A stretch of 64,000 bases of DNA, from positions 12,892,034 through 12,956,033 of the forward strand of contig CM060853.1 in assembly GCA_030737835.1 (NCBI GenBank), in the 5' to 3' direction. A model generated the notes under the pieces. That model saw only the letters and a list, made by a program, of their open reading frames with translations. It was not told the DNA's origin and ran no database searches. The stretch is from Acorus gramineus. Its lineage: Eukaryota; Streptophyta; Magnoliopsida; Acorales; Acoraceae. A program made the position numbers and the translations under genes. The stretch's first letter is position 1. Every line of letters begins with the position of its first letter. This document shows, in pieces, positions 23,641 through 46,437 of the stretch.

Positions 23641-25700
23641 CCTAGTTTGATTGTAAGATCAACTACGGAAAGTCCTTTCAGATATCCAAAAACGGTTGAT
23701 GACTCATCATCCATCATCAGTCCCGGCACCACAACGACCCGACACACAAGCTTTGCATGCCACACGCGCAAGAACGCGAACTTCTCCTCCAGGTCTGCGG
23801 GCAGCGACGTGTGCACGCCTCAACTTGTTCAGTGTATCGCGATCCTGTTCAGCTTCGGTGAGAACCCACCCCACAAATACGACAATCATGACTTTGATCG
23901 AACCATCGTCTTCGGATCCAGCAAATCCGGATACATTTCGTCTTCGGATCCAGCAAATCCGGATACATTGTCGAAGATCACTCCTGTTACTCATACTATT
24001 GAGCCTTTTGAGCTTCTTTGGGATGCCCTTCTGAATTCGATTGATTTTCTTCTCAGTTCTAAAGCAGACTGGCCATTTTGGCATGTCACTCTGAAAAGCA
24101 ATCTTAATGCACATGAGTTATTTGGTCATCTTGATGGGACATCTGTCTCCCCATTGCCTACTGATCCGACATACCCTTTATGGCGCATACGCGACTTGCG
24201 TGCTTTCTCTTATGTGATTAACTCTATTGATTGCACTCTTCGGGCCGATCTTAGTGGCTTTAATACATCGGCCGAGCTCTAGGCTAATCTTCTTGACCGC
24301 TTTGTGGAGAAAAAAGGTGCACGTGAGTACTTGTTATTTGTTCAGGCACATACTATTGTTCAAGGTGATTTGTCTATTCAACAGCTCTTCAATCGCATGC
24401 GGACTTGTTTCCGTGAGTTACGTGATTTTGAGCCTGGACTGCATGCAACTCCAGCTGAGCGCGCTGCCTTTCGTGATTGTCGTGAGCTCTATCAGTTTCT
24501 GATGGCTCTCCGCCCTGAATTCTCCTCTTTGGCGGGTCAGTTGATTCATCGTGATCCTCCACCATGCATGGAGGTTGCTCTATTTGAGCTTGTAGCTGAG
24601 GAGACTCGTCTTTGTACCATGGCTTCTCAACAGTCTACTCCTCCGACTGTATATGAGAGTGTTCTAGCTATTACCCCTTGCGCTGTACCTCTTGTAGATT
24701 CCTCTCGTTCTCGATCTCTTTGCGCCTACTGCAAGAAACCCGGTAATCCAATTGGCAAATGTTAGAAACTTCATCAGGAGAAACGTCAGGGTCATCATGG
24801 TCGTGGCCATCGTCGTCCTACTACGGTTGGTGCTACTTCCTCTGCACCGGGTCAGCTATCCTTGGATCAAATTGGACAGTTCAATCAGCACCTCGATCAA
24901 CTTCTACATCAACAACCTCCATCTGCTCCTTCTAATCTTTCTGCCTTCTTTTCCACTACGGGTAATACTGCTTCGATTTTTGATTCAGGTGCATTCCATC
25001 AAACGACACATGATTGTTTTGTGCTCACTGCGTGCTCACTTGCCCTTGCTCATTTTTCTCTGATACATTGTTGATGGTTCCTCCTTGGTCATCACGTTGT
25101 GTGGTTCTATCACCGCTACTTCTAATTCCACTGGTTATCTTTCCCTTCCCTATGTAATGCATGCATCAGATCTCTACATGAACCTTATTTCTATTAGTTG
25201 GCTCTGTGACTCTGGTTTGAAAGTTTCTTTTACTTCCTCTGGTTGTTTTGTGTAGAATCCATGTTCGGGTTAGAGGATTGGCATTGGTCGTAAAGTTGGC
25301 GGCTAATACTTCGTGGAGTATCTGCATCTCCCATTGATGGATCCATCTATCATCTGTGGTAGTGTTACCTCTCATGCCAACTTGTGGCATAGAAGGTTAT
25401 GTCATGTCTCTTAGTCTCTCCTTAAGGTCCTCTTTGACTCTGATGTTTTGGGTTCTTCTTCTTCTTCTCCTTTGTATGTTTGTGTGGGTTGTAATCTGGT
25501 CAAATATGTGGCCCTTCCTTATAGTTCTAGTAATAATCAATTTATCAGTTTTTTTGAGTTAGTTCATTATGACATTTGGGCTTGATTTGGTTCAAGTTAG
25601 GGCTGGAGTAATTCTATTTGGTTTAGATTTATAGTTGTATGATATTCTTTTCTTGGTTTCTTCTTCCATTGAGCTTGGTCAGATTCTAATATGTGCTGCA
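23640..25700 (+). pseudogene. Decayed Ty1/copia retrotransposon fragment (gag to start of integrase)
   Basis: The translated plus strand gives a gag-like region (WPFWHVTLKSNLNAHELFGH, then IQQLFNRMRTCFRELRDFEP) interrupted by an in-frame stop at about 24280. A CCHC-type knuckle (CAYCKKPGNPIGKC, followed by a stop where the final His region should continue) comes next, then a protease-like IFDSGAFHQTTHD near 24980, then the pre-integrase zinc region around 25380 (LWHRRLCH, CVGCNLVKYVALPYSS) with further stops. Reverse transcriptase, RNase H and both LTRs are missing. The part after 25120 is shared with the inverted block at 39077-41923. Clearly non-functional. Confidence 0.8.
23906..23969. repeat. 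Perfect 32-bp tandem duplication in the copia fragment
   Basis: The unit beginning TCGTCTTCGGATCCAGCAAA occurs at 23906-23937 and immediately again at 23938-23969. The 32-bp length would by itself shift the frame. Confidence 0.9.
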
Positions 25701-26175
25701 CATAAAAATCAATAGATGTCATGAGTTTGAAATGCTCCTATACGTGCAAATTCTTTTTACCCTTTTTATAGATAAGTAGTGGGATTTTAATCCAAGACTA
25801 GAAATACATGGAAATCTAGGTATAATGTGAACAAATTATGGGGACATTGGTATGAGTTTTGAGGACACCCCACATAGAACTTGTGTTTTAAGATCATGCC
25901 AATTTATCATGCATAGCGCCATAGCCCAAATGAATTTTTTGTGATTGTTTCATATTTAAAATTGTTAAAAACTAAATTAAGGAATCTCTATTCGTGTTAT
26001 AAATGAGATAGCAAATAAAACTAAATTAGGATATGCACTTTACTTGAAATATATGTATAATTGATATTCAATGTTGAATATGTTTATTGTATATATGTTG
26101 TGGTGCTTGTGGATATTGGAGGAGATCAAAAATACAAATGAATTTTATCAAGCGGTGTCATTCTTTTTCTATTAC
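25690..26175 (+). repeat. Internal direct repeat of block A, unit 1
   Basis: Shares ordered words with 27855-28285: CACATAAAAATCAATAGATG against CACGTAAAAATCAATGGAAG, TATGAGTTTTGAGGACACCC against TATGAGTTTTGAGACCACCT, and GGATATTGGAGGAGATC against GGATATTGGAGGATACT. The divergence is much greater than between A and A', so this internal duplication is older. Confidence 0.75.
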
Positions 26176-26985
26176 TAGCATCACTACAAAATTGTCAACT
26201 ATCATTAATTTTTTTATTTAATAGGAGGTAATTAAAAACATCCTTTAATTTTTCTCATTTACAGATTGATAATAAAATCAATTTCAATATAAATTTTAGC
26301 ATTCCAGCAAATTTATTCTCAGTGTGAATATATAATTTTCAACTGGGAATAGTTTTCAATCTATATTTCTCCACATAAAAATCATTTTTCCATCTTCATA
26401 AGCTAATGGTCTATTGTGATTGCAGGCTCATGATGACCATATGGAATGTATATTGCTTAAAGATGCTACCCTGATTAATTTCATGGAGGTTAAGCTGAAA
26501 GGTCGAATTTTTGAGAATGAGAAAAATGTATAAAACCCCAAGAAAATTAGCTAATATTTATATCCTCTGTTTTTCTAAAAATCTATATAACCCCTTAAAA
26601 GTTTTCCTGATTAAGCACATACCTATTTAAGTTAATTTCCCGCTAAATTGTGAGGAATATTAATGAAATATTCCGTTACCTAACATTACAATGAAAATTT
26701 ATTTATATGCATATGAACCCTTGAAATTTTAACAAAATATAAAAAAAAACCCTGCATATGACAAAATGCTCTTCCATTCACACTTGCACCGAATGTCTTC
26801 CTTTTTCCTCCCGTTATTATTCCATTGTTTAAGCCAAATTGAAGCATACTGTGCTCCATCACTTGTAATTAGAGACTTCCATATTCCGGAAGCTTAGAAG
26901 CAATTATACCATAAAATGTAAGTTTTATCTTTTGTATACCAAGTGATTGATGGAATGCATGTGTGAATGTATTTTATTAGGAAAA

Positions 26986-27258
26986 TGATATGTCCAGCCC
27001 TTTATACAGTCTCAATTGCAGTCCACACTGATTTTTTTTTAAATCATACTCTTCTATTGGAGTAGATGCTGTTATATGAAATGAAATATATATTGAGATA
27101 CATTCGTGCATTTTTTTTTTCAAATTGAAAAAATATTAAATTTTTTTGTGCCATACACTGATAAAATCCTGTACATGTGATAACACAATATATACTACAA
27201 TATCATAGCGTATGATGCTACAAAACGGGATGTAAAACATATTGAGTGTATGGTACAC
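26986..27258 (-). mobile_element. MITE family R1, copy in block A
   Basis: Reverse-strand copy running from GATATGTCCAGCCC to ATTGAGTGTATGGTACAC. It is mirrored by the copy at 39811-40078 because both lie in the inverted-repeat arms. Confidence 0.7.
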
Positions 27259-27854
27259 TTTATATGATTTTGATCAAGCAAACTTAACATAGATTTCATA
27301 TTATGCTGATGTGATTGCTCTGTTTCTTGGTTTTAAGAAAACCTTCATATTTCTTCTGCTATACAAAAGTGTTTGTGTCTTTGTAAAGAGTTCGAATGAT
27401 TTAGACAATACTTTATGAGTGGGCCAATATGTAAAGTGAAAAATTCTTTTCTCACTTCTAACATGGGATTATTCTCAAAACCCCAAACCCAAACTATATT
27501 ACACTCTATTCAACAGCAAACGCATGTCCCAAGTATTTTATTCTGATTACATATCATTGTGGAGGTTTTTGTTTCACTCTCTTTTATATTTCACATGTTT
27601 TCAGCATTTTTATATGTAATTACAAGTATCATATGCCTAGTCTTAATTTTTCAAATGATTTATTTAGATTTCTTTTTATTAATGTAAAATTTATAAAGGA
27701 CAAAACAGTCTGCACAAGTGAAACAATTCAATGGAATTTAAGACCACTCTGTCACAACCTAAATTATGACACACTCGGAATTGAATATAATCGAAAAAAA
27801 TAAGTTCATAGGTTCCAATTATGATAAATATTATAATTGGTTGTCAAAGGGATC

Positions 27855-28285
27855 GAAACTAATGTTATGCTGCACGTAAAAATCAATGGAAGTCATGAGT
27901 TTGAAATGTTTCAATACATGCAAATCTTGCTTGCGTGCTATTTTTATGCCTAGTATATATAGTGTGAATAAATAATGGAACATTTGTATGAGTTTTGAGA
28001 CCACCTCACATAGAACTTGCGTTTTCTAGATCATGTCAATGCATCATGCATGGCCCAAATGAATTTCTTGTGATTCTTCAATTTTCATCAGTGTTGAAAC
28101 AAACTGTGTGATTTCTATTCATGTTATAAATGGGAGGATACATTAAACGCAATCATGAATTGAATTCAATTTAAATGCTATACAAATAAACAAAGTGCAA
28201 TGTGAAATATGTTTATTGTATATGCTGCGGATATTGGAGGATACTGACAATACAAATGAATCATGGTAGGTGGTAGTGTCATTTT
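27855..28285 (+). repeat. Internal direct repeat of block A, unit 2
   Basis: Diverged second copy of 25690-26175. This unit is absent from the corresponding part of the inverted arm at 39077-41923. Confidence 0.7.
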
Positions 28286-29219
28286 TTAACTTCAAATTGA
28301 AATGGAAAAATTTAAACTAAATAATTGTTATTATATATATTATATTTCCTTCACTTTTACCCTTTCATTGCTTACATTTGTTTGGAGGGGTAGAAAGTTT
28401 TGGTTAATTTAGTGACTTTATTGTGAGTTAAGATTAACTAGAGTAAGAGTAGAAAGTTGGGAATAATTTACTGATTTCATTTTGAGTTACAAGGGTAAGT
28501 TGGGTCATGGATAATCTTTGTGTCAAACAAGAATATAAGTACATGGGTTTTTGTTAGTTTTTAAAGATTTCTACATCTATCACAGCTTTAACATGGATTT
28601 ATATGAGATTATTCATGCTTGTATAAATGTTTTTAATTATTTAGAATAACTAGACTACCACAGCATTTTGTTCATCAAACATAATAATTAATTAATGAAA
28701 TGAGAACCGTTTAATTTAATGAAGAAAATATAAACCCAAGATCTTTAACTACTTTTATCAAAATATTGAAATTTATTTTTATTTAATCATTTTTGTTTTG
28801 ATTTCAAAATTCAGTGTGATTAAGCTTGCCAAGTAAATATTAACATCAACTAACATGCGAGACAGTCCACTTTACAATTCAGCCTATCCACAAGGCTTCC
28901 ATTTGTTGATACATGGTTGTAATAGGAAAAATGTTACACTCGGTACATTTTAGTAATAGAGCTCCAATTCTTCCCCCATGAATTTAATTATTAATAATTA
29001 ATTATTTTTTAATTAAAAATAACAAAACAAAACAACAAAACTATGATCTAATTTACTCTGCACAAAAAACTAAATACAATGTTCTTCTGCACCATAAATT
29101 TTCATTATATTTAATTATTCAAGCATAATTACGCAACAACAACATATACAAACTATATAAGTGCATCATTAATACATCCATCTCCTACATATCTATATAT
29201 ACATCCATGCCATTGATTT

Positions 29220-32200
29220 CTATTTCTTTGGCACCCAACATCCATGGAGGCCATAAGGGAGGCCGTAAGGGAATTTCGCACGCGCGATCTCCTCGAACGT
29301 CGATCCATCGAGCATCAACGCGTAACCTTCACCGTTCTTGTCACTAACAATCGATATGACTACGCCTGTGGTCACACAGAAAATACATTTCAGTTTTAGG
29401 TGATAGTTATATACACATTAATATCACATCAGTGTTCAAAATAATTACTTTTCAAAACATGTTATACTCACCGTCATCTTCTTTAGTCGCACCAGGCCTA
29501 GCTACAAAAAATGGTTCTGAGGGCACAGCCCCCTCTTCGTGCCAGCTGTTCGCCTTCTTCTCAACCAAATCGATCTATGATCAAATAGAAAGTAACATTT
29601 ATGTAACACATATATCATATCAATGTCACATTAGTTAGGTGCACTGAAGCTAAAAAACTCACCTTTGTTATAGTGTTGGGAAAATTACAAGGCCGTCGGG
29701 CACCGCACGCATATGCGTATCTATACTTCTTTCCCAAATAATCTTGGTTGATGCTACACATGTCCATGCCTCTTCCATGCTCATTAGGGTCCAATGCCGC
29801 CTCCAATTCCCCTTTTGGACTCCCATCCAATGGTATCCTAAATCGTCCCACCCTGAAATTTTCACCCCACATTGTGTAAAACATATGTATATATGTGTGC
29901 ATGCATGTATGTATGTATGTATGTATGTACCTAGCATCCGGCAACACATCTACGCCAGCAAAAGACCGTAGATTCCGTAGTCGGAGTTGATCGAGGATCT
30001 CAGTGTTTGCGTAGTGCTCACAACAATCAGCGACGATCGCCGTCACCCTCCCCTCCTTGTCTCGCTCTTCGTACGCATTGATGAAATGGAATGTCACGAA
30101 CAATGGTACTTCTACGCTCGCAACCTACAAAACAACAAAATAATATTTGGTCATCATCCGTCTCATCTGATACTGATTAAACCTGGTGGGATTCACGAGC
30201 TAGTAATATTCACTTACTATTTTTCCAGTCCGCTTGCACATGACGTGCAAGTACGCCCCGTTCTTCGGGCACCAGTCGAACTTGTAAAGTGGTGTGGGCT
30301 CTGCCCGGAGCAAATTCCGCGCGGAGTACCTCAATGGCATCTCCGGCACGACGACGTAATTCTCCGTCACCGGAAATGAGTGAACCCACCCCGGTGTCGG
30401 CCCGGCCCGACAATCAGCCCGGCCCACCACCCTCCTCTCATTACTCCCCGCCTCCATCCTCACCACCGTGTACCCGGGCCGGACCAAGTCAGGCAAGAGC
30501 GTCAAAAACTCGGCCCGAGTGACGATGGGGTGGGCCGAGTGGACCAGCCCGCCGAGCCCGTCGGAGTACTCGAAGCGACCCAAGGTTTCCAACGTTTCAG
30601 GGTCGATGACGATGGAGCCCTTGGTGGTCTCGGTGAGGCAGACGACGCGGCCGTCGCCGAGGAGGACGACGCCGGTGTTGGCGTTGTCGGTGAGGGAGGC
30701 GCCGGAGAGGAGGGAGGCGAGGTCGGAGAGGAAGGAGAGGGGGTTGGTGGTGGTGGGGGTGGGGACCTCGCTGAACTCGCGGAAGCAGAGCTTGTTGTGT
30801 TTCATGGCGGAGACGTAGGCCTCCGACTCGACCTGGCGATGGGACATGATGAGGCGGCTGTTGGTGAAGTGGAGGCGGACGAGGGTGGCGAGGCCGTCGA
30901 AGAGGTGGCGGAAACCATGCTCGCCGACGTTCCAGAGGCCTGGGCCGTTGCGGAGGTAGGTGCCGTTCTGTTTCGTCGACCAAATGGAGTGCTCCCTCAC
31001 GTTATTGATACGAGGTATATAATTAAATATTTTATGTTTTATATAAATTTATTAATACAATTTATTAGATAATATGTTACATTTTTTTTATTTATAAAAA
31101 TCGTGTATCTTCTTAGATGCGATATGCTATTTTTTAAAAAATTCAAAAAGTGTGGGCTAAAATGGGAATTAAAAAAAATTGATTTCATGTAACATTATTC
31201 AATGAAATGAATGCCCACTCTTATTAGTGTACGAGAATAATTTTTTATAGTCTTATGTGCCTCGTTAGCTCCATCTATTTACTATATCAAAGGATTTACA
31301 TTGTTGAAATTTTTTTTATAAATGATATTATTAAATTTATTGAAGTATATAATTCATCTTTTATAAAAACATATAGATGGGATATATGAAAAGTTATTAA
31401 TGCAACCTAAATGAATCGAGCAAGACATACCAACAAATCCATCTAAACTTAGTTGTTCCCAACAAATTTTTATTTGGGATATTTGAATATATGACTGATT
31501 GGAAAATATTATTGGTGATGAGATATGTAATTTATTTTATTAAGTTAATACATGTTTTATAAAGAAAATCAAAACAAGTTGTGGGTCGCATATGAGACTA
31601 ATTAATTGTCTCTACCATTTAATGCATTATATTTTTATTGTAAAGATTTATAAAAAATATATTCAGTTCTGATGGGAAAAAACATATGCAGTTGAATATT
31701 GCACTTATTTTTATGTAAACGTATGTTTTTATTAGATAAATAAATTCATATCACCGAAGTACAAATATTTTCATTTTCCATTGTGTGTTGGTTGACAGAG
31801 ATGATGGGTTGTGGTGGGCCAATTCAAATTTGTGGGCCCATTTGTGATCATGGTGTCTAACAGTCTCTTCTCATAAAATAATGGAAAATGATACGACCAC
31901 AGACGGTTGAGAATGTCCAATCAGGTGGACCCCCAAGTGGGGTCCATATACTGAATGTACTGAAAACACCAACCCAAGTGTTAATAAAAAACTTGTCTTG
32001 TTTTTACCCAACAAAAAAAAAAAAAAAAAAAAAAATGTCTTTATATTTTATACTTATTATATGCAGCATATGTCGATGTTATTCATGCATGCATAAATAA
32101 ACATATCAAAAACAAAAAATACATCCAAAAAAAATCTACATAACATTAGAAACCATTTCAAATAATTGAAAATCCAACATTAAATTTTTCATAATCACCT

Positions 32201-32625
32201 CTAAAACATCAATATATAGTTTGTTATATGTTACAATTATAACCTATGTTTCATTTTTGTTATTTCATGTGCCCTAAGTGCACGTATGATCAAGTTTGAA
32301 CTGGCCCTACCAGCCACAGAGGAATCTTGCCGTCGACGGCGAGTTCACCCTCCCACCGCCTCTGCCGGACGCTCGACCACGCTGCGAGCTTCGAGGACCC
32401 GTGGTGATCGGTCTCCGTCGGAGGGGGGCTCGGAACAAAGGTGGGGGGTGGTGGCCGGGTGGCCACTCCGGCCATGAGAGGATCGATCGTCGCCCGTTTT
32501 GTGTTGGGGAGGCCCCGGTTGAGATTCGTGGCGGGCCGTGATGGGTCGGACCGGACAGGGTCAGACGGAAAGGCTTTGCCGGCGGTGGTGGAGGCGATGG
32601 TGGTGGTGAAGGTTAGGGAGGCCAT
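29220..32625 (-). CDS. CCD8: Carotenoid cleavage dioxygenase 8 (carlactone synthase, strigolactone biosynthesis)
   Basis: Plastid non-heme iron enzyme that converts 9-cis-beta-apo-10'-carotenal, made by D27 and CCD7, into carlactone, the strigolactone precursor that represses branching. Orthologue of MAX4, D10, RMS1 and DAD1. Exons on the minus strand: 32625-32311, 30967-30218, 30124-29931, 29852-29663, 29574-29472 and 29365-29220; phases agree, 565 residues. Residues 1 to about 80 form a Ser/Thr/Pro-rich transit peptide; the enzyme proper starts near AAWSSVRQRRWEGELAV. The four iron-ligand histidines are seen in their family contexts: H251 (SAHPIV), H301 (GWVHSFPVTEN), H368 (TFHFINAYEE) and H558 (GLHGCW). 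CCD8-type blocks include GHRQ-like SHRQVESEAY, SLTDNANTGVV and YAYACGARRPCNFPNT. The only uncertain point is expression, given the transposon in its promoter. Confidence 0.96.
29887..29930. repeat. (GTAT)n microsatellite at the start of CCD8 intron 3
   Basis: ATGT/GTAT repeats interrupted by GTGTGCATGC lie directly next to the intron donor at 29930-29929. Length variation here could alter donor spacing, though the GT itself is intact. Confidence 0.85.
30968..32310 (-). other. CCD8 intron 1 (1.34 kb)
   Basis: AT-rich intron between donor CTG|GTAGGG (32311/32310) and acceptor CAG at 30970-30968. It holds a poly-A run near 32010-32033 and a degraded R2-type repeat at about 31060-31200 (AAAATTCAAAAAGTGTGGGC, CATGTAACATTATTC). 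No second gene was seen within it. Confidence 0.75.
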
Positions 32626-32690
32626 GGAAGGTGAGAGCTTGTCAATGAGGATTTAAAATGTGGTGTGTGTTTGTTTGTAGAGTTTGTGAG

Positions 32691-32698
32691 TATTTATA
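32691..32698 (-). promoter_or_regulatory. TATA box of CCD8
   Basis: On the minus strand the sequence reads CCTATAAATACTCAC, with TATAAATA ending 66 bp upstream of the start codon at 32625. This predicts a short leader of about 30-40 nt. Confidence 0.7.
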
Positions 32699-32913
32699 GG
32701 TGGTGGTGGGGGTGGGGATGGAGATTCTTGATCGGTCTAGTCTAAATTCCCTTTTGCTAGAGGACAGATTAATAGAAGGGGGTGAAAAAGGTTTTATTTG
32801 AACAGAACCCTATGATATATGGAATATGCTATGCACAGTTTATTTTGTACTCCCAATTCTAGTATGCTCTTAAAGGTGACATAAGAGGTGACATGTATAT
32901 GGGGTATGACAAG

Positions 32914-33403
32914 TAGGGGTGGTAAACGAGCTTAACGAGTCGAGTTTTGACATGTTTAGGGTCGGCTCATTTAGTATCAGGCTCGGCTCGAGACCGAGTT
33001 TAATTTCGTGCTTAAGCTCGGTCGTTTGACTCGTGAAAAGCTCGGTTGAAACTCGGCTCGGCTCGTTTGTTAAATGAGCCTGTGGCCGAAACTCGAACCA
33101 AGGCTCGGCTCGAGCTCGCTTAGCTAAAAAGAAATTTGTTTAGCATTTGAGAAGTCATTTTTCATAAATCACAACATCTTATACATGTGAAAATGACATA
33201 AGCTCGGGCTCGGGCTCAGCTCGATTTTTTGTTTCCACCATTTTATGTTAAGTAACGAGCTTGTATAGACTCGAGCTTGGCTTAGCTTGTTTATAAACCG
33301 AGCTTTAAAAAATATTCAAGCTCAACTCATTTGTCTAATCGAACAAACCGAATGAGCTTTAACCGAGCTGATCCCAAACTGCTCGGCTCCTTTACCGCCC
33401 CTA
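32914..33403. mobile_element. hAT-type element (GCTCGGCTCG family), copy 2, in the CCD8 promoter
   Basis: 490 bp with ends TAGGGGTGGTAAACGAGC and complement TAGGGGCGGTAAAGGAGCC, flanked by a perfect 8-bp duplication ATGACAAG at 32906-32913 and 33404-33411, as hAT transposition leaves. The internal word GCTCGGCTCG recurs on both strands. No transposase is encoded. It starts 289 bp upstream of the CCD8 start codon. Confidence 0.88.
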
Positions 33404-35789
33404 ATGACAAGACAACAGGATGAGCTAGCAACCCTTTCACCAAATACAAATGCACCAAAATTTTCAACTTGATCAATAATTTCTCTCAGCTAAAAACAAA
33501 TTGCAACTTTTACAATATTGCTAGCTTACAATACAATTAAAAAGTTGATGGTTCCAACAAATCGAGGATTGATCATCTGATTAACAAATTGAAACTAGGA
33601 GTACAATTTGGGTGGGCTAGACCTGACTGATCAACTTGATCCAACTTGATTTTGAACTGATTTGTATTAGGGTTTTAGTGATGGTGTTTAAACTGAACTT
33701 TAATGTAATCTAAGCAAGTTTGAACCGGGTGGGGTGAGTAATAGATATAATTGTTAAGTGTTTTTTTAAAGAATAATGTTTTCTAGGCCCCAACTTCACA
33801 GGCCCCATCAAAGGCCCCATGAGGTGGCATGTGTCTAATACCTGTTATACCCTTAGTTAATTATTTTAATTTTTTTTTTATAACTGATCCCTACAAAATA
33901 AGGAGACAATTATGATTGATTAAATAAAAAATAAAAAAAGATCTTTAAATAAAAAAAAAAGTGAAGGTGAGTCTGGACGGACACAACTTTTTTTCGAGTA
34001 AACTCTTTTTAATCAAACCTTTCTATTGAGATGGTCTCTTCTCTTCCAACCTAAACTTTTCAAAGATCTCCAAAAAAAAAAAACCCAACTATGAAGAGTA
34101 TTATAACATGCAAAAGAAGTCAATTATAGGCGGTGATCAGATCAACATAGAAAGGAGGAGATGATAAAAATGATGGAGGATGCTACAAAGCGTTTCAAAA
34201 TCCTCTGTTTCTTTGTTCTATTGTTTCTAAAGTTAGTTACATTTAATTTATATATGATTTGTATGATGTTAATGTTACATTTCTGACATCGAATAAATGT
34301 AACAGTCTGAAATGTAACATTTATTCGTGTATTGCATTTGTTTTAATGCATGTAGTAATTTATATTTGTTACATTTATTAATGTAACAGTCAAATACATA
34401 TATTTGTTAAATGTATCACACAACAAAAAATGTGTTTGACATTTTCTATAAAATGTAACTGACTATTGAAAATAAAATCTGTTTATAAATTGTTTAAATG
34501 TAAATGTAACAGTTTTTATGTAAATGTAACAAATCGTTGTGAGAGATATAAATATTTAAGAAATGTACTTGATGTAACTGCTTCATATAGTAACTATATA
34601 TGTTTTTTTTTTAAATTTGAATACAATAAATACCTGAATTTTTTAATGTTCAGTTAATAACATTCTTAAAAAAAAAAATTAATGTGGATAATAAAAATAT
34701 AAGTTTGAAGAAGAATTTTGATTAAAACAATTTAGATAATTTTTTGTGTAATTTAGTTTTAATTGTAATTTAGGTAAGGATTTCAAAATTCAAAATTTGA
34801 AATGGATAAATGGATTTCAAGATTCCCTCATAACCGAATAAAGAAAAAGGGGGGATTTGGGTTAATGGGATATATTTTTAATGAAGGACATATTTTAACA
34901 TTTTACCTTTTTGAAAAGTCAACAAACCAATTAATAAGAACCAATAAAATGATGACGGGCCTATGAGTGGGGCTTATTTTTTAGGATCTGGGTATCACCA
35001 CTGATATTTAAATCATATAATAGGTGAGATAAATCTAAATCCTCAATTTATTTTTCGCTCTAAAATCCATCACACTTTCATAGTTTTATTTCTTCATTTT
35101 CTCACCATCTCTCATTTTATCTATGCTATCTCCTTCCCCGAGCTACCATATACACTCTTTATCGAAACAACTCTAGACTTTTTTTTTAAATTTTAAATAA
35201 CACATTTTTTAAAAAAAACAGGCTTTAATCCAATCAAAATTTGAACGAAATCTGACGTGCTAGGTTCAATTTAATCTCCTCATGTTAGGATTGGATTGAA
35301 ATTCAGTTGATCTCCTCCAACTTTAGATTGGTTCACACCCTACAACCTTAAATGAGATTATAAAAAATTATATGTAACAATGTCTGAAATACATAAAAGA
35401 ATCTTGCTCTAATGACTCAAAATTTAACTAATTTAATACTCAAGTTGATTTTATTGGCTAATCACAAAATAGCATGTCAACATCATTTTCTATACGAATG
35501 CTATATCACTTTTAAAATTGATCTATACCAATTTTAATTATTAATTAAAATTTTAATTATTAGATTATTAATTTTTTTTTTAAAAAAATGGGTGATAGAA
35601 TATTCTGAGTGGAAGAGAATCTTGGTCGGATCCAGAACCGCCCAAAGTGGTAGTGGTGGGAACAAAAAAAAAAAAAAAAAAAAAATGGATCCCCTTGTTG
35701 GACTGATTTTTTTTTTCTTTCCTCAATGAGCAATGATTATGTCACACCATCAATAGTAAGTGCATCTAGCATTTATTCTATTTATTTAA
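33404..35789. other. AT-rich intergenic DNA with dispersed TGTAAC motifs
   Basis: No gene recognised. 34230-34590 holds about ten copies of TGTAAC or its complement GTTACA, many as AAATGTAACAGT. A 22-nt poly-A run lies near 35665-35686. A possible weak inverted-end element spans about 33790-34985 (GGCCCCAACTTCACAGGCCC against GGGCCTATGAGTGGGGCTT). Confidence 0.55.
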
Positions 35790-36300
35790 TTATAAAAAAT
35801 ATGTAATGCTATGGAATCTCATATACATTTGCCACACATGAGAGACAGGCATCATTGTTAAATTTCAGTCACCAATCAATGTCCAATATAATATTTGTCA
35901 ACTCTTAGAGATGGGAGACATAGAGGTAACTCCACTACAACATATGGCTTTGTGAATGTTCTTTTGATTTTACTTTCATTATCAATGGAGCATTAATTTG
36001 GTGCTTTTTTTTAATTTTTGGTGGAAGAGCATTTCGTGGTATTATTATCATTTTTTTTTAGTTGACTTGTTTCTACGGTTAGAAATGGCTATGAATCTGA
36101 ATCTTGAAATGTACTTTTATTTTGATGTCTTTTTAATATTTAATGTGTATGATATTTGAGAAATGATGATAGTTGAATGGAATACTTGTCGGGAGATCAT
36201 CAAATATGAATATATTAACCTAGCAAAAAAAAAAAAAAAAGAATATATTACTTTTCACCAAAAATATAAATATATTACCAAATAAAAATATATAAATGTA

Positions 36301-37069
36301 TTGGGAAAAATCGATATAACTATATGAAAAGTTAGTTAAATAGGTTTTAGTCCCTATAAAATTAAAAAATCATCACAAATCCCTAAAAAGCATGTATGGT
36401 TAAAGAATTTAATCTATGAGTTAAATTTTCTCTAATAAATACATTCAAATAAGTCCATACAAAATATAAAAAATCCGATGATAAAAATGCCTATACCTTT
36501 TTATGAAAATTCTCATACTATCCTACACTCACCACCGATAAAAAAGAGAGAGAGAGAGAAAAAAAAAATCGATATAACTCCCTGAAAACTTATGAAAATC
36601 GAAAAAGGTCTATGTAAAATTAGTAAATCCCTTTAAAGTCAGCAACAAATCTGATTAGTGTATTACAGTAATTTATTAAGTAAATTTTAAAAGGGTATTA
36701 CAATAATTTATCATGTATGGTTAAAGTCAACCACAAATCTGATTAATTCCAATTACCGTAGGGACTAAAATAAATACTGTCTAATAAGATAAGAACTTGA
36801 GGGGATTTACAGATTTTTATAGGGACATTTTCTGATTTTCATATGTTTCTAGGGAGCTATACCAATTATTTAAAAATAAAGGGTGAGGGCATTCTAGTAA
36901 ATTTTAATGTGTAGTTTAGTGTTAACTATGTACCTGATTAGTTGGGATAACAGTAGAGACTGAAGCTGTATTTTTTCAATAACATAGTAACCTATAATGA
37001 TTTTCTAATTTTATAGGGACTAAAATCAATATAGCTAGCTTTCTCGGGAGCTCTATCCATTTTTCCCAA
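36301..37069. mobile_element. Foldback element family F, in B copy 1
   Basis: It begins TTGGGAAAAATCGATATAAC and ends CTATCCATTTTTCCCAA, an inverted pair. Internal tracts such as TTTTAGTCCCTATAAAATTA and TAATTTTATAGGGACTAAAA (near 37010) are inverted copies. A GA microsatellite sits at about 36545-36560. Copies: 47044-47812 and about 50850-51575. Confidence 0.75.
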
Positions 37070-37762
37070 ATGCATTATGTTTCTTCTTCAACATTAAAAA
37101 ACATGTGTTGTTCATTTTTTCAATCAAAATAAAATAAATACTCAAATATAAGGACTAAAAAATCTCATGCATTTTTATGGCCAGTTTTTTAAAGGGAAAA
37201 TTTTGGATTATAGAAAAATATTAAATTAATTTGAAACCAAAAGGTGATCGCAATCTAATAATGAGTCGGTAATGTTATTGAATTTTAATGTAAAAGCAAA
37301 TATTTGTAATTAGTTTTTAAAGTGTTTTTATTTTGCTTTTCTGTTTGCAGCCTTCAAATATATGCTATTTCTTTTTATACTACTACCGATAATCGAATAA
37401 TTTATATTCCATTCAATCTTTTTACTAGAAATGTGAGAAATCGTGTAAATATTTTATCACATTTTATAAATAAAATCCAATTTAATGAGAGTTAACTTAT
37501 GACCAGTGGGTTAAAAGGTCAAAAATAACTTAATTGATCATTCTGTTTTTTTTTTAATAATAACAATAATGCAGATAATGACAATCATTGTGTTTTTGAA
37601 TATCAATAAGCATCAATTTAATTATTAATATTTAATAATATATAATGATGATATTTTATATTATTTAATAGTATAATTTTTTTTTATTTTATAAAAATAT
37701 AATACATAAAAGAGATATAAAGATATTCTAGTCTTTTTATGTGATATTAACGGTGTTAATAC

Positions 37763-37991
37763 TAGGGCTACAACTTGAGTTGGATTGAACCTGAATCTGA
37801 TGGGTTGAACATGGGTTAGTCGAATTTGGGTTGGGTCGGGTAGGTTGGTTTATTTAATTACGGGTTGGGTTCGGGTTGTCCAATTCTGGTTGAAAATCGG
37901 GTTGGGTCGGGTTAGGGTTGAGTAGTTTGGAATTCGAGTTGAATTCGGGTTGGGGTCAACCCGAACCCAACCTGTCCGAGTTGCAGCCCTA
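37763..37991. mobile_element. CGGGTT-rich hAT-like element, internally deleted (B copy 1)
   Basis: Ends TAGGGCTACAACTTGAG and GAGTTGCAGCCCTA. It is 229 bp against 536 bp for the same element in B copy 2 at 48506-49041, so about 307 bp is missing here. The interior is GGGTTGGGTCGGGT repeats. Confidence 0.75.
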
Positions 37992-39052
37992 GTTAATTTG
38001 AATATTTATTTAAATTAAGTGGAACTCAACTAGAGTGATAAAGATACATCAATTTTAAACATTTTAATGGAGTAAAACTAAATAAGTCATATGTAACGGT
38101 GTAAAAATTAATAACATTTTTTCTTTGTTTTTCAATGATTATAAATGAGCCTTTATAAATTTATCTTTATATTTAGCTATTTTGTTTGAAAATACACCAA
38201 CAAAGAAATGCCAAAAACTCTAACCTGTCTGTGGAACATAAGACTTGTAATAAAGCTTCAAGGGCCATTGAATATCCAAAAGTTAGAATAAATTATTTGA
38301 GAGTGAATCATGTCGTACACATGCATGGTGATGTTAAATTAATATTATTGTGATTTATTAAAATTATGATAAAATTTTGTTTTCTTATAGACGTGCTACA
38401 TGGCCCATCCTATTCTATTCGGATTTTATTCTTATTTTTGAGGTTGTTATTGTTATACATTCCAAAATGGCATCTAAAACTCCACAATATCTAATGATAC
38501 TTAAAAAAAAACATTTGTCATTTTTAATTTAATTAAGGCCTCATGGAGATTATTAATTTTATGCCATGATAGAATAGATCAATGGATTGGAGACCATCGT
38601 GAACTGATCTCATGATAAAAAAAATAACAAAATCATCCTTTCCATAGTACAGCTTTCATTTTTAATATAAGAATTAACATCACCCATGTTATTTAAATGT
38701 CTCTGAGTTACTGAGTAATAACTGAAAAAAAAAGAAAGATTGGGCACTCTATATTCTTCAATAAAATGAGGGCAATTGCCTACATTCACTTCCAAAGAAA
38801 AAAAAAAAAGAGGGGGGGGGAATCTATATAACTATGTGAAAATATAGCTAAATCTGCTTAAATTCCTATAAAACTGAAAAATAGTCACAAGTCCCTAAAA
38901 AGTATGTATAGTTAAAGGATTTAGTTCATAAGTTAAATAAGTCCCTATAAAATATAAAAAATTCGATTTAGTCTTTTTTATGAAAAAAATGTCCTTGCAT
39001 TTTCTTGAAAATTCTTCTGCTATCATGTACTTACCGACGGTAAAAGAAAAAG

Positions 39053-39081
39053 TATGTATGGTTAAAGGATTTAGTTCATAA
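39053..39081 (+). repeat. Junction filler: 29-nt copy of upstream F-element sequence
   Basis: TATGTATGGTTAAAGGATTT and the following nine bases repeat sequence found about 150 bp earlier (from 38903, one mismatch). The filler is entered through the shared AAAAAG and left through the shared CATAA into block A'. It marks the B1/A' breakpoint. Confidence 0.85.
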
Positions 39082-41923
39082 TTTAGGTTGTGACAGAGTG
39101 GTCTTAAATTCCATTGAATTGTTTCACTTATGCAGACTGTTTTGTCCTTTATAAATTTTACATTAATAAAAAGAAATCTAAATAAATCATTTGAAAAATT
39201 AAGACTAGGCATATGATACTTGTAATTACATATAAAAATGCTGAAAACATGTGAAATATAAAAGAGAGTGAAACAAAAACCTCCACAATGATATGTAATC
39301 AGAATAAAATACTTGGGACATGCGTTGCTGTTGAATAGAGTGTAATATAGTTTGGGTTTGGGGTTTTGAGAATAAGAAGTGAGAAAATAATTTTTCACTT
39401 TACATATTGGTCCACTCATAAAGTATTCTTTAAAAACTAACAAAAACCCATGTACATATATTCTTGTTTGACACAAAGATTATCCATGACCCAACTTACC
39501 CTCGTAGGTACTCAAAATGAAATCAGTAAACTATTCCAAACTTTCTACTCTTACTCTAGTTAATCTTAACTCACAATAAAGTCACTAAATTAACCAAAAC
39601 TTTCTACCCCTCCAAACAAATGTAATTGGAACCTATGAACTTATTTTTTTCGATTATATTCAATTCCAAGTGTATCATAATTTCGATCCCTTTTGTATTG
39701 TACAGCAGAAGAAATATAAAGGTTTTCTTAAAACCAAGAAACAGAGCAATCACATCAGCATAATATGAAATCTATGTTAAGTTTGCTTGATCAAAATCAT
39801 ATAAAGTGTACCATACACTCAATATGTTTTACATCCCGTTTTGTAGCATCATACGCTATGATATTGTAGTATATATTGTGTTATCACATGTACAGGATTT
39901 TATCAGTGTATGGCACAAAAAAATTTAATATTTTTTCAATTTGAAAAAAAAATACACGAATGTATCTCAATATATATTTCATTTCATATAACAGCATCTA
40001 CTCCAATAGAAGAGTATGATTTTTAAAAAAAATCAGTGTGGACTGCAATTGAGACTGTATAAAGGGCTGGACATATCATTTTCCTAATAAAATACATTCA
40101 CACATGCATTCCATCAATCACTTGGTATACAAAAGATAAAACTTACATTTTATGGTATAATTGCTTCTAAGCTTCCGGAATATGGAAGTCTCTAATTACA
40201 AGTGATGGAGCACAGTATGCTTCAATTTGGCTTAAACAATGGAATAATAACGGGAGGAAAAAGGAAGACATTCGGTGCAAGTGTGAATGGAAGAGCATTT
40301 TGTCATATGCAGGGTTTTTTTTTATATTTTGTTAAAATTTCAAGGGATATGCATATAAATAAATTTTCATTGTAATGTTAGGTAACGGAATATTTCATTA
40401 ATATTCCTCACAATTTAGTGGGAAATTAACTTAAATAGGTATGTGCTTAATCAGGAAAACTTTCAAGGGGTTATATAGATTTTTAGAAAAAAAGAGGATA
40501 TAAATATTTGCTAATTTTCTTGGGGTTTTATACATTTTTCTCATTCTCAAAAATTAGATCTTTCAGCTTAACCTCCATGAAATTAATCAGGGTAGCATCT
40601 TTAAGCAATATACATTCCATATGGTCATCATGAGCCTGCAACCACAATAGACCATTAGCTTTATGAAGATGGAAAAATGATTTTTATGTGGAGAAATATA
40701 GATTGAAAACTATTCCCAGTTGAAAATTATATATTCACACTGAGAATAAATTTGCTGGAATGCTAAAATTTATATTGAAATTGATTTTATTATCAATCTG
40801 TAAATGAGAAAAATTAAAGGATGTTTTTAATTACCTCCTATTAAATAAAAAAATTAATGATAGTTGACAATTTTGTAGTGATGCTAGTAATAGAAAAAGA
40901 ATGACACCGCTTGATAAAATTCATTTGTATTTTTTATCTCCTCCAATATCCACAAGCACCACAACATATATACAATAAACATATTCAACATTGAATATCA
41001 ATTATACATATATTTCAAGTAAAGTGCATATCCTAATTTAGTTTTATTTGCTATCTCATTTATAACACGAATAGAGATTCCTTAATTTAGTTTTTAACAA
41101 TTTTAAATATGAAACAATCACAAAAAATTCATTTGGGCTATGGCGCTATGCATGATAAATTGGCATGATCTTAAAACACAAGTTCTATGTAGGGTGTCCT
41201 CAAAACTCATACCAATGTCCCCATAATTTTATACCTAGATTTCCATGTATTTCGAGTCTTGGATTAAAATCCCACTACTTATCTATAAAAAGGGTAAAAA
41301 GAATTTGCACGTATAGGAGCATTTCAAACTCATGACATCTATTCATTTTTATGTGCAGCACATATTAGAATCTGACCAAGCTCAATGGAAGAAGAAACCA
41401 AGAAAAGAATATCATACAACTATAAATAGAATTACTCCAGCCCCAACTTGAACCAAATCAAGCCCAAATGTCATAATGAACTAACTCAAAAAAACTGATA
41501 AATTGATTATTACTAGAACTAAAAAGAATGGCCACATATTTGACCAGATTACAACCCACACAAACATACAAAGGAGAAGAAGAAGAAGAACCCAAAACAT
41601 CAGAGTCAAAGAGGACCTTAAGGAGAGACTAAGAGACATGACATAACCTTCTATGCCACAAGTTGGCATGAGAGGTAACACTACCACAGATGATAGATGG
41701 ATCCATCAATGGGAGATGCAGATACTCCACGAAGTATTAGCCGCCAACTTTACGACCAATGCCAATCCTCTAACCCGAACATGGATTCTACACAAAACAA
41801 CCAGAGGAAGTAAAAGAAACTTTCAAACCAGAGTCACAGAGCCAACTAATAGAAATAAGGTTCATGTAGAGATCTGATGCATGCATTACATAGGGAAGGG
41901 AAAGATAACAAGTGGAATTAGAA
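39077..41923 (-). repeat. Block A': right arm of the inverted repeat
   Basis: Reverse complement of segments of 25120-28565. 39686-41923 matches 25120-27360. 39622-39685 matches 27770-27835, 39428-39622 matches 28380-28565 and 39077-39430 matches 27405-27770. Block order therefore differs from A. It ends at 41923 directly against coding sequence of the Mutator-like element. Confidence 0.88.
39811..40078 (+). mobile_element. MITE family R1, copy in block A'
   Basis: It runs from CCATACACTCAATATG to GGGCTGGACATATCATTTTC and is the mirror image of 26986-27258. Confidence 0.7.
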
Positions 41924-41937
41924 CACACGAATTTTCA

Positions 41938-43032
41938 TCAAACCTCTGAGTCACCTTTCACCTGAAATATCGAATTTAATAATATATGATCTTCTATGAA
42001 TTGACAAAAGAAGATGAAAATATTGACATTACCTTGCTCCCAAAGGTCGATCTCCAAGAATAAAATCCGGATCATGCAATGACGGTCGTCCCACATGTAA
42101 TCTCTCCCACGACCATAGCTGCATTGGAACAAAATCTTTAGTAACACAGGAAAAAAAACAAATTTAGTATGTATGGATGAAAATTGAGGTTTGCATATTA
42201 CCTGTAGCAAAGAATAAAAACCATGAGATCCTGCCGACATCCTCTCTCCAAGCACACTACCTCTGTACAATGCTCTATATAAGTGGGCCAACGCAGCTGC
42301 ACCCCATGAATATCGACCAGCATCCTCAAAATCTCTGAATAAATGAAGGTAGCACGCATGTATCTTATTTCCTGTGCCATCGGCGAAGATTGTTGATCCA
42401 AGCACAAATAAGATGTATGCACGTGCATACTGCTGGAGGATATCGTCGTCCAATTCAACATCTGGTACGATGCTGAAGGTTTCTTTAAGCCACGAGAGAA
42501 AAATTCTTCCACCCTTGATCTTATCTGCAGGGGGGCCAACACCTAACAGCTCCTCACAGACGCTGGCCCAATCATCGTGGTCTGTGATACCAGTCACGGG
42601 CTTGCCATCAATGGGTAGTCCAGTCAGAATAGCAACGTCCTGAAGTGTAATTGTCATCTCGCCATGTCGCAGATGAAATGTGTTGGTCTCTGGTCTCCAT
42701 CTCTCAGTCAGTGCTTGTAGAAGTCGATGATCTGATCTGGTATATCCCATCTCTGTCAAATAATACAACCCCGATGCCCTCACGTATGGCTCGATGCGTG
42801 GATCCATGACCCAGTGACGCAATGCCACCATGTGGATCGTAAACTTGGATACGTCGGTCTGTTTAAGGAAATTATATATTCAAGTAAGAAAAAAATCATA
42901 TATGAAGAATAACATTAGAGAAAAACACATCATTTGTCATACCTTGCCCTGGAATCCATGATGAGACCTATGAGATCCCTGAAAATACAGCAAATCATCC
43001 ACGACGGGTCCATGCCACTCACGGATGTCCAT
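41938..43032 (-). pseudogene. Plant mobile domain (PMD, PF10536-like) protein, truncated
   Basis: Exons 43032-42943, 42858-42202, 42118-42033 and 41961 onward. Recognisable PMD blocks: MDIREWHGP, PYVRASGLYYLTEMGY, RWRPETNTFHLRHGEMTITL, QDVAILTGLPIDGKPVTG, SWGAAALAHLYRALYRG and LWSWERLHVGRP. The third exon ends GDRPLGAR. The fourth would start with a Trp in the family, but here TGG appears as TGA, and 38 bp further on the element is cut off by block A'. PMD proteins (relatives of MAIN/MAIL1) occur as host genes and as cargo of MULEs and Gypsy elements. It lies 86 bp downstream of the transposase exon, either as a separate gene or as the 3' part of a fused transcript. Confidence 0.82.
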
Positions 43033-43117
43033 CACCTGTAATTTGAACACAAGTTAATATCTACTCAAACAATTGAACATTCATCATCATATCACAATCA
43101 TATTTAACATCAATTAC

Positions 43118-45796
43118 CAGCATTTGTATTTCTACGTGGACATTTATTTTTTCTATGGCCTTTCTCATGACATATTGAACATGTATATCTCAGACTTGGA
43201 TCCCTGGAGTCCATATGCATACGTCGGCGAGTTGATACAGGGCGCCCCGCTTGTCTCCTAACATTTGGTGGGATGAAGATGGGATCGTTTTCCGTAGGAA
43301 TCGGCCAACGACTTTTATCATCAACGGAGTGGAATCGGGGTTCATAAGTGTGTCTATATGACTCTGAGGAAAGCCAATGTGACACATATCTCCCAGGACT
43401 AATACGAGCATACCCACAGGCCGCTATGACATGTGCACATGGATAGTGAAACAACTTCGGAACATGACATTGACATTCTGCATTGTCAGAATATAGGAAA
43501 ACAATGTACATAACCGCATTCTTGTCTTGGACATTGAATTCTGATCTATCAAGCCTTCTTACTAACATCGCCCTTGCATCATGTGCAGTTCTCTCCAAAT
43601 GTTGCTGCATAGATGGCACATGTTCACCTGACATGCTCTCGGCCGATTCACGCCTTGTATAAAAATACTCTGACACTCGTATGAATGTCTGTTGTAATAT
43701 GGCAGTGATTGGCAACCCTCTTACACCTTTCAAGACACTGTTCATGCTTTCTGCTCTATTGGTGGTCATCGTGCCATGACGACGGCCATCGTCATAACAA
43801 AGGGCCCATGTTTGTGGAGGGACTTGATCAAGCCATGTGCGAGCTTGTGAGGAGGCACTAAGAATCTTTCGCATTTCATCAGCAAATTGATTTGGACATT
43901 TCAAGGTGGCAGCCCTCCACACCTGGTCACTCAACTCCTTTGATTTTACATGTTTTTTGAAGTTGTCTATCATGTGTCTCATACAGAAACGATGGTGCCA
44001 TGTTACATTGCTTGATTCCTCAATATCCTTCATGCCTGCTATGATGCCCAAGTGCCGATCAGATATGACACACAAATTGTTTATACCACCAACAGAAAAG
44101 AACAAGTTCCAAAGGAAGAAGGTCCAACTGCTTCTGTTCTCAGATTCAACTATAGCAAAGGCTATCGGAAGCAAACCATTTTCTGCATCGCAAGCAGTGG
44201 CTATCAGGAGATTTCCTTTATACTTTCCATACAGATGTGTTCCATCGATGCAAACCAATGGACGACAATGTTTGAAAGCCTCTAAGGCTGGTCCGAATGC
44301 CCAAAAAACACGTTCAAACTGTCGGATCGGTCTGCCCATGTTATTCTCTTGTATGACAGGGCCTTCGAAGAACACAGTTGTTCCTGGATTAGACCTCCTC
44401 AAGGCATCAACATATAGAGGCAACTCAGCATATGATTCCTCCCAATTTCCAAATATCCTCTCCATAGCCTTCCATTTGGCACGGTTTGCCTTTGAATATG
44501 AAATTGTGTAGTGATGATCAGCACGTATCCTGTCCATTATCTCAGTGCGACTGATTCTCAAATTATGACGAATCATTGGCATAATCAGCTGTGAGATATA
44601 ATCAGAACTAAATTGTCTGTGATTTGAACTGAGAAGAGGATCAAGCATGTATGAGGAACTCTCAGAGTGGAAATCTTGAACATTTCTGAACCACCGACCC
44701 TCCTCGCATATAATCTCCAATTACATTCATCATTTATGCACTTAACGGCGTATTTTTCTGCATTTGATTTCACCACATGACATTGTGCGCATTTCTTTAT
44801 GCTCCAGGTTCGGACAGCATTAATGAGTGACTTCTTATTCGCGAAAAGCTGACCAACCTCAAGTTCATTACACGAAGAAGATCCGATTTCATAAATGCAT
44901 GGATGGACATTTTCAGCCACCGCCTGCTCCATAAGCTCACGTGTAGGAAACATTTGAGGAACACCATATTCACTGATGGCAGTTCTCCTCACATCATGGT
45001 CCTCCTCACTATCAGGTTCCTCAACCCAGCCATATTCACGATCCTCTGCTTCTTCTTCTTCTTCGGTATCTTCATCATCATCCTCTTCTTCTTCTCCCCA
45101 ATCTTGATCTTCTTCTTCTCCCCCTTCTTGATCTTCTTCTTCTCCCCCTTCTTGATCTTCTTCTTCTTCATTGTTCACTTCAATTCCTTCACGAATATCG
45201 TCCCAACCCATGTCATGAAATGGGGACCTATAAATGCAAACACAATATACTTACATATATGAATACACCCACCAAAAACATCCTATAAATTCACAATACT
45301 TACAAATGTGGTATATTCACACTCCCATAGGCATTGGTCGGTGTTGCATCAATCATATTCTCTTGGGTGCACGGAACAAACGACGACGATGAAGGTTGAT
45401 ATGGTTCACGAACAATGGAAGGATATGAATCTTCTGCATCATAATTCATCGCGCCACGACCTCTTTGTATGATCTCTTCCTTCTCTAACCATATTTGAAT
45501 GATATGCGCGTGCTTTGGGTACAACATATCATAACTTTCACCCCCATATCATCTTCGAGAGGGGCACCCAAACACTTTCCGTCGTGAGTTGGATGCACAG
45601 CAGTCATGGACAATTTGTAAAGACTTGGATCGGTCCCCGTCAAATGGTACATCATTTGGAGTAAATCGACATAAGAGATCTTCTTATTTATGATGGTGGT
45701 TTTCATGGTACCACCTTCATAAAATGAACTATCTTCGCGTTGAACAATCCTCCCGTTAAAAGAGTACATTAACGGGACATCGGATTTCTTTACCAT
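43118..45796 (-). pseudogene. MURA-type Mutator transposase with two frameshifts
   Basis: Two exons, 45796-45304 and 45227-43118, joined in phase. The N-terminal part starts MVKKSDVPLMYSFNGRIVQR; a very acidic Glu/Asp/Gln repeat region follows (about 45190-45010), then the MuDR DNA-binding-like region (LEVGQLFANKKSLINAVRTW, KCINDECNWRLYARRV). The MULE catalytic domain has VCIDGTHLYGKYKGNLLIAT (first Asp), VISDRHLGII (second Asp), a downstream acidic helix, the SWIM zinc finger (CQCHVPKLFHYPCAHVIAAC) and a C-terminal CCHC knuckle (CSICHEKGHRKNKC). Breaks: an apparent 2-nt gain near 45525-45530 and a 1-nt loss near 44641-44650. The 536-residue catalytic frame is otherwise open, so inactivation is recent. 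Confidence 0.88.
45001..45180 (-). repeat. Short tandem repeats coding the acidic tract of the transposase
   Basis: Units of CTTGATCTTCTTCTTCTCCC (plus strand), repeated and partly degenerate, encode EEEDQEGGEE-type repeats. Such tracts change length by slippage. Confidence 0.8.
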
Positions 45797-46401: not shown

Positions 46402-46437
46402 ACACTGGAGACGGATTATATAATCCGTCTCCAGTGT
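46402..46437. repeat. Perfect 36-bp palindrome in the MULE subterminal region
   Basis: ACACTGGAGACGGATTAT is followed directly by its exact reverse complement with no spacer. It lies 94 bp from the element's end, upstream of the transposase gene. Confidence 0.95.

Follow-up and report, generated by a model that had tools for sequence, protein, structure and literature searches.

Inverted repeats flanking a CCD8-type gene of Acorus gramineus: a proposed origin by break repair at a Mutator-like transposon

In a stretch of 64,000 nucleotides from Acorus gramineus, below called the window, a CCD8-type gene is framed by two inverted repeats, A and A'. We consider it about an even chance that this arrangement is the by-product of a single event in which a break at a Mutator-like transposon (MULE) was repaired in a mutagenic way. 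Two further elements of the locus, a pair of direct repeats (B and B') and a truncated MULE, would explain how the inverted repeats originated. The event proposed is of an ordinary kind; what is unusual is its legibility, as a merely suggestive repeat pair becomes a repair history with a donor, a copying order, microhomologies and a transposon end.

The CCD8-type gene and its inverted flanks

The gene occupies 29220–32625 on the minus strand and consists of six exons encoding 565 aa. Its splice model is the longest of 192 candidate splice-site combinations; all introns are of the GT-AG type, the only stop is terminal, and two in-frame TAGs (30200–30202 and 30125–30127) fall in intron 2; the gene is apparently intact. 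The protein carries an RPE65 domain (PF03055, 4e-102, residues 94–563), and its sequence and gene structure point to a putative CCD8 (carlactone synthase) rather than CCD1, CCD4, CCD7 or an NCED. Among 34 RPE65 matches, this exon pattern was seen nowhere else. None of the papers that literature searches for CCD8 listed was recognised as a description of the present locus.

The original prediction had placed near-identical inverted repeats on either side of this gene, and the alignment of the arms bears this out. In a self-BLAST of the window, the main segment of A (a1, 25120–27366, plus strand) matches the reverse complement of 39698–41923 at 98.0% identity over 2,249 columns (E-value 0.0). 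The segments a2 (27400–27769) and a3 (28372–28567), both on the plus strand, give two further inverted matches: 39076–39434 with 27769–27400 (95.7%), and 39427–39625 with 28567–28372 (96.5%). This similarity is far above chance. Counting substitutions only, the arms differ at 20 of 2224 positions in a1 (0.90%), 5 of 359 in a2 and 4 of 196 in a3, which pooled gives 29/2779 or 1.04%; the longest identical tracts of the main arm measure 380, 322, 272, 255 and 234 bp. The interval between the arms (28568–39046, about 10.48 kb) contains the whole gene, as had been predicted for a region of some 10.5 kb. Near-identity over at least 2.2 kb is likewise found, but the arms given as 25120–28565 and 39077–41923 are not colinear along their full length: 27822–28371 of A is missing from A' except for a scrap of 13 bp, and the order of a2 and a3 is swapped.

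An old copia-like retroelement fragment (24110–25580, plus strand) indicates which arm is the donor. It extends across position 25120, the outer boundary of A, and its 12 genomic relatives (69–73% identity) align from query positions 3–11 to 1479–1481, that is over about 24110–25580, so that the outer 0.5 kb of A is part of this family. The name copia is our assumption from a gag-like translation; three of the open frames of the fragment gave zero Pfam matches at E 0.01. Because the relatives continue across the edge of A, A is the original arm, from which A' was derived; the reverse assignment was rejected on the same ground. A second candidate, that A and A' are two copies of a dispersed transposon, was also rejected: outside the locus, the part of the repeat at 39077–40500 had no match except an interspersed repeat some 280 bp long (40 of 2,977 candidates scored). 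Together with the copia-like outer 0.5 kb, this suggests that the repeat as a whole is not one dispersed element.

Judged by self-BLAST and junction anchoring, A' is a shuffled mosaic assembled from parts of A, with short microhomologies at most of the joints. It is preceded by a 35-bp scrap in plus orientation (39047–39081), which stems from within B or B' (50925–50959 or 38897–38931) and overlaps its neighbours by 6 bp on each side. The inverted segments follow, all on the minus strand: a2 (39076–39427), a3 out of order (39427–39625), a 61-bp scrap of A 27821–27761 (39623–39683, overlapping a3 by 3 bp), a 13-bp scrap of A 27858–27846 (39681–39693), which is short and may be due to chance, and finally a1 (39690–41923), which stops within the copia-like fragment. 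The overlaps at the seven junctions are 6, 6, 1, 3, 3, 4 and 4 bp; one joint of A' thus overlaps by a single base. Four junction edges were taken from BLAST or from direct reading of the sequence, the others from automatic anchoring. Random joins in this region share 3 bp or more in 7.1% of cases, as do six of the seven joints here. The seven overlaps sum to 27, a total reached or exceeded in 37 of 200,000 random draws of seven joins. The observed overlaps are biased upward because donors were picked by similarity, which lengthens apparent microhomologies. After dropping the two junctions of the 13-bp scrap, four of the five remaining overlaps still reach 3 bp (binomial 1.2e-4). Both marks of template switching are therefore found in A', namely out-of-order segments from nearby templates and, with the same bias through donor choice, joint microhomology above chance.

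Direct repeats and a truncated transposon

The direct repeats B (35790–39052) and B' (46532–51080), both on the plus strand, enclose A' and a 4.6-kb piece of the MULE; neither they nor the MULE were noticed in the earlier description of the locus. Self-BLAST and substitution counts give 32 differences in 3267 positions (0.98%), so that A/A' and B/B' are about equally diverged (1.04% versus 0.98%). B' contains a palindrome of 953 bp, which is missing from B; the right edge of B is broken within an interspersed repeat. Off the locus, the matches to B were confined to interspersed repeats, mainly one some 770 bp long (40 of 2,366 candidates scored), and B as a whole is therefore probably not a dispersed transposon. 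The candidate reading of B and B' as the long terminal repeats of a retrotransposon was rejected, as what lies between them is A' and, on the minus strand, a transposase of the Mutator type; the absence of other long matches to B among the candidates scored also counters it.

The element between A' and B' is a PMD-MULE (41924–46531, minus strand), which has 31 other long copies in the genome. The reading frames of the window contain the MULE domain (PF10551, 2.1e-14), the DNA-binding domain DBD_Tnp_Mut (PF03108, 3.5e-11) and the PMD domain (PF10536, 2.1e-49). Its right terminus at 46531 is the same as in other copies. The left 1.5–1.6 kb, including the left terminal repeat, is missing; the left end was not found within the window, and sequence beyond 41924 is present in 26 of the 27 other copies inspected (6 of 7 and 20 of 20 in two sets). 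One other copy, L010, breaks off only a few bases from this position. Terminal inverted repeats of about 100–130 bp with 80–93% identity are seen in five full-length copies; of the two ends, the window copy keeps one. The target duplications of these five copies are perfect 9-bp repeats in two, near matches in two, and absent in one.

A' thus borders on the broken side of a MULE whose opposite side, towards B', is intact. The first base of B' directly follows that intact terminus; B has the same sequence without a MULE, and its left edge, TTATAAAAA, is an apparent empty site. Insertion of a whole MULE after the duplication was rejected as a candidate, the left end being absent.

Dating of the MULE is loose, as two estimates conflict. 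A strict count gives 8 private substitutions in 4448 positions (0.18%), well under the roughly 0.5% expected if the element had been resident since the duplication; the terminal branch in a tree is 0.64%, in the range of half the divergence between the repeats. A search for a direct flank repeat across the element found no long one at 6 other MULE loci with both flanks (about 0.5–3.4 kb per side). These are 6 of 8 larger loci, L018 and L019 being excluded because one element end lies beyond the locus; a check of this size would let larger or more distant duplications escape.

Candidate origins of the repeats

The preferred account starts from a MULE at the boundary L/B (35789/35790) with the 9-bp target duplication TTATAAAAA. 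The window has lost the left MULE end together with the target duplication next to it, so that the insertion is an inference. Once the locus had been replicated, the MULE would have excised; repair of the break on its right would have used the sister copy and restored 4.6 kb of the element before stalling. The broken end on the left, which finished in the same 9 bp, would have annealed to the target duplication on the right and copied 3.26 kb of B from there. The template would then have switched to the B scrap and further to the minus strand of A, 7–11 kb away beyond CCD8, with several switches, until the copied A' strand was linked, at AGAA, to the partly restored MULE. Upstream of CCD8, this would produce the order B – A' – MULE – B', and with it inverted arms around the gene. 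Interrupted repair has been invoked for deletion derivatives of MuDR (PMC10288884, citing Hsia and Schnable 1996), and in animals gaps are described as being filled with sequence captured from nearby at microhomologies (PMC8277862). Against the account weigh the low count of private substitutions in the MULE, the three full-length copies without a perfect target duplication, the break at almost the same position in copy L010, and the lack of a comparable flank duplication at the six other MULE loci.

The same exact empty site and the duplication of B are explained equally well if an empty L-B and a filled MULE-B' came from different chromatids or homologues, their ends being joined via the patch copied from A. 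Such inter-allelic joining, or transposition-coupled re-replication, requires no excision but just coexisting copies with and without the MULE, and we rate it as a possible, if clearly less probable, origin. A maize study (PMC4270019) lends it support: alternative transposition of Ac/fAc yields composite insertions together with tandem duplications, and of three alleles reported two have microhomology at the internal junction (4 bp and 3 bp), whereas the other has none. The maize case, however, involves two nearby reversed element ends and carries donor flanks, whereas here the flanked repeat is the target flank, and a second MULE end was not found in the window. Nor was a second haplotype of the locus found; among the candidates scored, the long B matches and the RPE65 exon pattern are unique to this locus.

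Somewhat less probable still, and rather unlikely in our estimate, is a series of independent events: a tandem duplication of B, a later MULE insertion beside the second copy, and a later deletion or insertion that brought A' and removed the left MULE end. The 8 private substitutions suggest that the MULE may postdate the repeats, as such a series would have it; the longer tree branch demands no younger MULE, and the nearly equal divergence of the two repeat pairs also speaks against separate events. Moreover, the series needs either an insertion exactly at the edge of B homology or one deletion that took both the duplicated left flank and the MULE end. That one arm or the duplication of B is an assembly artefact is very unlikely: repeats of 2–3 kb at 98–99% identity can mislead assemblers, but the window lies within a 24.7-Mb contig, both repeat pairs differ by about 1%, and B' has its private 953-bp palindrome. 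In addition, most junctions are short microhomologies, and a misjoin would be expected in long identical tracts.

Returning to the single repair at a MULE, one may ask how general such an event is. We tentatively suggest, as a rather improbable extension, that MULE excision and re-priming on the other 9-bp target copy constitute a general plant route by which flanks are duplicated on the kilobase scale, inverted nearby copies are pasted in and genes become framed by flippable arms. If this were true, the activity of a transposon family would give rise to cassettes prone to inversion.

Recombination between the repeats and comparison with known systems

The original prediction saw in the arms a substrate for flipping the interval, which would place CCD8 in a new regulatory setting and generate natural variants. 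With 2.2 kb, 98% identity and identical tracts of up to 380 bp, the arms are indeed adequate for recombination, and an inversion between them is possible in principle. Human genomes offer a precedent: in one survey (PMC3961182), 17 of 22 predicted inversions via repeats of 1.6–24 kb were validated, with signs of recurrence, and the arm length found here lies within this range. No inverted allele is seen at the present locus; the one assembly has a single orientation, which leaves the occurrence of inversion unsupported, and B and B' are still direct. As a tandem duplication produces repeats in just this orientation, the interval between the arms has most likely kept the direction it had at the outset. 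The argument for a new regulatory setting is weak, because a flip moves the whole gene together with about 6.4 kb upstream of its ATG (32625), comprising 3.16 kb of non-repeat sequence and the 3.26 kb of B, and with some 0.65 kb downstream. Although a present-day inversion switch that yields regulatory variants of CCD8 would be compatible with any reading of the origin, we hold it to be very doubtful. A simpler product would result from recombination between B and B', which would delete about 10.7 kb including A' and the MULE. Deletion alleles are thus predicted beside the inversion alleles of the original prediction, and the locus gains relevance for strigolactones via CCD8 only if accessions differ in structure. 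The case illustrates how a MULE family of recent origin may reshape sequence far upstream of a hormone gene; any effect on CCD8 would be hypothetical.

Among known systems, the interrupted gap repair of MuDR/Mu and the Pack-TIR or Pack-MULE elements resemble the locus in that a truncated MULE lies beside captured nearby sequence with microhomology at the junctions. A Pack-MULE, however, has flanking MULE sequence on both sides of the captured piece; here one MULE end is missing altogether (the left end is absent from the window) and 3.26 kb of target flank is duplicated. The maize Ac/fAc re-replication alleles share a tandem direct duplication split by a transposon-bearing insertion and microhomology at some internal junctions. 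Ac/fAc are hAT elements with two reversed ends, and their composite insertions have two element ends with donor flanks, whereas the window holds a single MULE end and the filler stems from an upstream inverted template.

FoSTeS/MMBIR and the templated insertions made by polymerase theta are similar with respect to short scraps that were taken from nearby templates in either orientation and joined mostly at microhomology; the sequence by itself does not distinguish between polymerases or pathways. Patch-mediated double-strand break repair in rice, reportedly described by Vaughn and Bennetzen in 2014, is said to leave insertions flanked by tandem duplications that are much shorter than those found here. 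The insertion within a tandem duplication is the common feature; at the Acorus locus, one edge of it is the terminus of a transposon.

Inverted and direct repeats around the CCD8-type gene

Self-comparison of the window bore out the original prediction that near-identical inverted repeats lie on either side of the CCD8-type gene. In the left repeat A, segment a1 (25120-27366) has its counterpart at 41923-39698 (98.0% across 2,249 columns; 20 substitutions in 2,224 when these alone are counted), a2 (27400-27769) at 39434-39076, and a3 (28372-28567) at 39625-39427. A and its inverted partner A' are not colinear: A consists of a1, a2, a 600-bp stretch and a3, and A', on the minus strand, of a1, scraps, a3 and a2. 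A copia-like fragment (~24110-25580), with which 12 genomic relatives align from query positions 3-11 to 1479-1481 at 69-73%, spans the outer edge of A (25120). Because A' ends within this fragment, A is the original and A' the derived copy.

The same self-comparison revealed the direct repeats B and B', which are absent from the original prediction. B (35790-39052) matches B' in three stretches (46532-48552, 48861-49559 and 50519-51080); the alignment of 3,267 bases contains 32 substitutions. B' contains a 308-bp stretch (48553-48860) without counterpart in B, and a 953-bp palindrome (49563-50515; 88% self-complementary) not found in B. The palindrome is a foldback element, which came after the duplication unless B lost its copy. 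The space between the two direct repeats is taken up by A' and a Mutator-like transposon (MULE) piece of 4,608 bp. An interspersed repeat continues rightward from B', and B is broken off within the same repeat. This repeat of ~770 bp (36303-37070 and 50850-51574), whose whole copy lies beside B', has 37 long genomic matches elsewhere at 75-79% among the candidates scored. Since the sequence left of B is free of any MULE trace and the homology of B' starts at the first base after the MULE terminus, B resembles the empty site, and B' the sequence that flanks the filled site on its right.

Transposon piece and joints

The MULE piece (41924-46531) encodes, on the minus strand, a MULE transposase with DNA-binding and plant mobile domains. 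In the assembly searched (398.6 Mb of a plant genome in 137 contigs, the window lying within a 24.7-Mb contig), there are at least 31 further long copies (2.8 kb or more); five copies examined at full length measure 6.1-6.3 kb and have inverted ends of ~100-130 bp. The window copy extends to its outer end, which falls exactly at 46531; on the opposite side 1.5-1.6 kb is missing. The element carries on past this break point in 26 of 27 other copies inspected (6/7 and 20/20 in two sets); the exception, locus L010, has its break no more than a few bases from that point, by coincidence or at a fragile point. At L010/L024 (C14, ~80949-85554), unrelated sequence lies beyond the MULE break. At six further MULE loci for which both flanks were available, no flank duplication like B/B' was found.

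The path leads from B through a 35-bp scrap of B, a2, a3, a 61-bp and a 13-bp scrap of A, and a1 to the MULE. Its seven joints, set by extending donor matches to the first mismatch (four edges came from BLAST or the printed sequence), show overlaps of 6, 6, 1, 3, 3, 4 and 4 bp. A' also has, past the final scrap, five bases (TTGTA) missing from A. Random joins within 24-52 kb overlapped by at least 3 bp in 7.1% of 200,000 draws, and seven joins together reached a summed overlap of 27 or more in 37 of 200,000, an excess of microhomology inflated by choosing donors on similarity. When both joints of the 13-bp scrap were omitted, four of five overlaps were at least 3 bp (binomial 1.2e-4).

The CCD8-type gene and its surroundings

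The CCD8-type gene (29220-32625) lies on the minus strand and starts at 32625. Its splice model, the longest among 192 candidate-site combinations, has six exons, GT-AG introns and 565 amino acids (Pfam RPE65, 4e-102); two in-frame TAGs counted at the gene fall in intron 2. The name CCD8 is a putative assignment. A second locus with this exon pattern was not found among 34 RPE65-family matches. Several RPE65-family genes or fragments cluster at G000:C7 ~13.127-13.162 Mb, ~200 kb from the CCD8-type gene on the same contig. Upstream of the gene follow 3.16 kb outside both repeat pairs (including 32934-33375, an 80% repeat of 13223-13667 in the self-comparison), 3.26 kb of B, and A'.

Upstream of A, a chaperone gene (17800-22095, plus strand) contains Clp_N and AAA domains in 17803-18747; beyond this part we take it to be of ClpB/HSP101 type by reading. 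A fragment of the plastid gene matK (56066-56461, plus strand; Pfam MatK_N 8.2e-52) is probably a plastid DNA insertion in nuclear DNA. Two palindromic repeats at opposite window ends (5478-5751 and 56774-57030), 77% alike in the self-comparison, probably belong to one miniature element family.

It had been proposed that recombination between A and A' could flip the CCD8 interval. Arms of such size and identity make recombination plausible, and PMC3961182 reports 17 of 22 predicted human inversions with repeats of 1.6-24 kb as validated; nothing in this analysis, however, shows an inversion at the locus, and the fact that B and B' are direct repeats speaks for an interval oriented as it was originally. 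If the interval flipped, 6.4 kb on the upstream side of CCD8 and 0.65 kb on its downstream side would move with the gene. An equally simple prediction is a deletion of ~10.7 kb through recombination of B with B'.

Age and origin of the arrangement

A and A' differ at 29 of 2,779 sites, similar to B and B' (32 of 3,267); the two pairs may therefore share one age. In a tree of 29 copies, the terminal branch of the window MULE measures 0.64%, versus ~0.5% per lineage for the repeats; its strictly private substitutions number only 8 in 4,448. These two MULE age measures disagree, and MULE dating should carry no weight.

A single repair gone wrong at a break left by MULE excision would yield an empty site, a one-sided MULE, the duplication of B, the scraps and the equal divergences. 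It is the simplest account covering all five features, and we give it an even chance of being correct. A joining of MULE-plus and MULE-minus chromatids or homologues would explain the data almost as well as excision repair, and we consider it rather unlikely. Related events have been published: interrupted repair at MuDR is described in PMC10288884, template switching to nearby filler sequence in animals in PMC8277862, and composite insertions accompanied by duplications following Ac transposition in PMC4270019.
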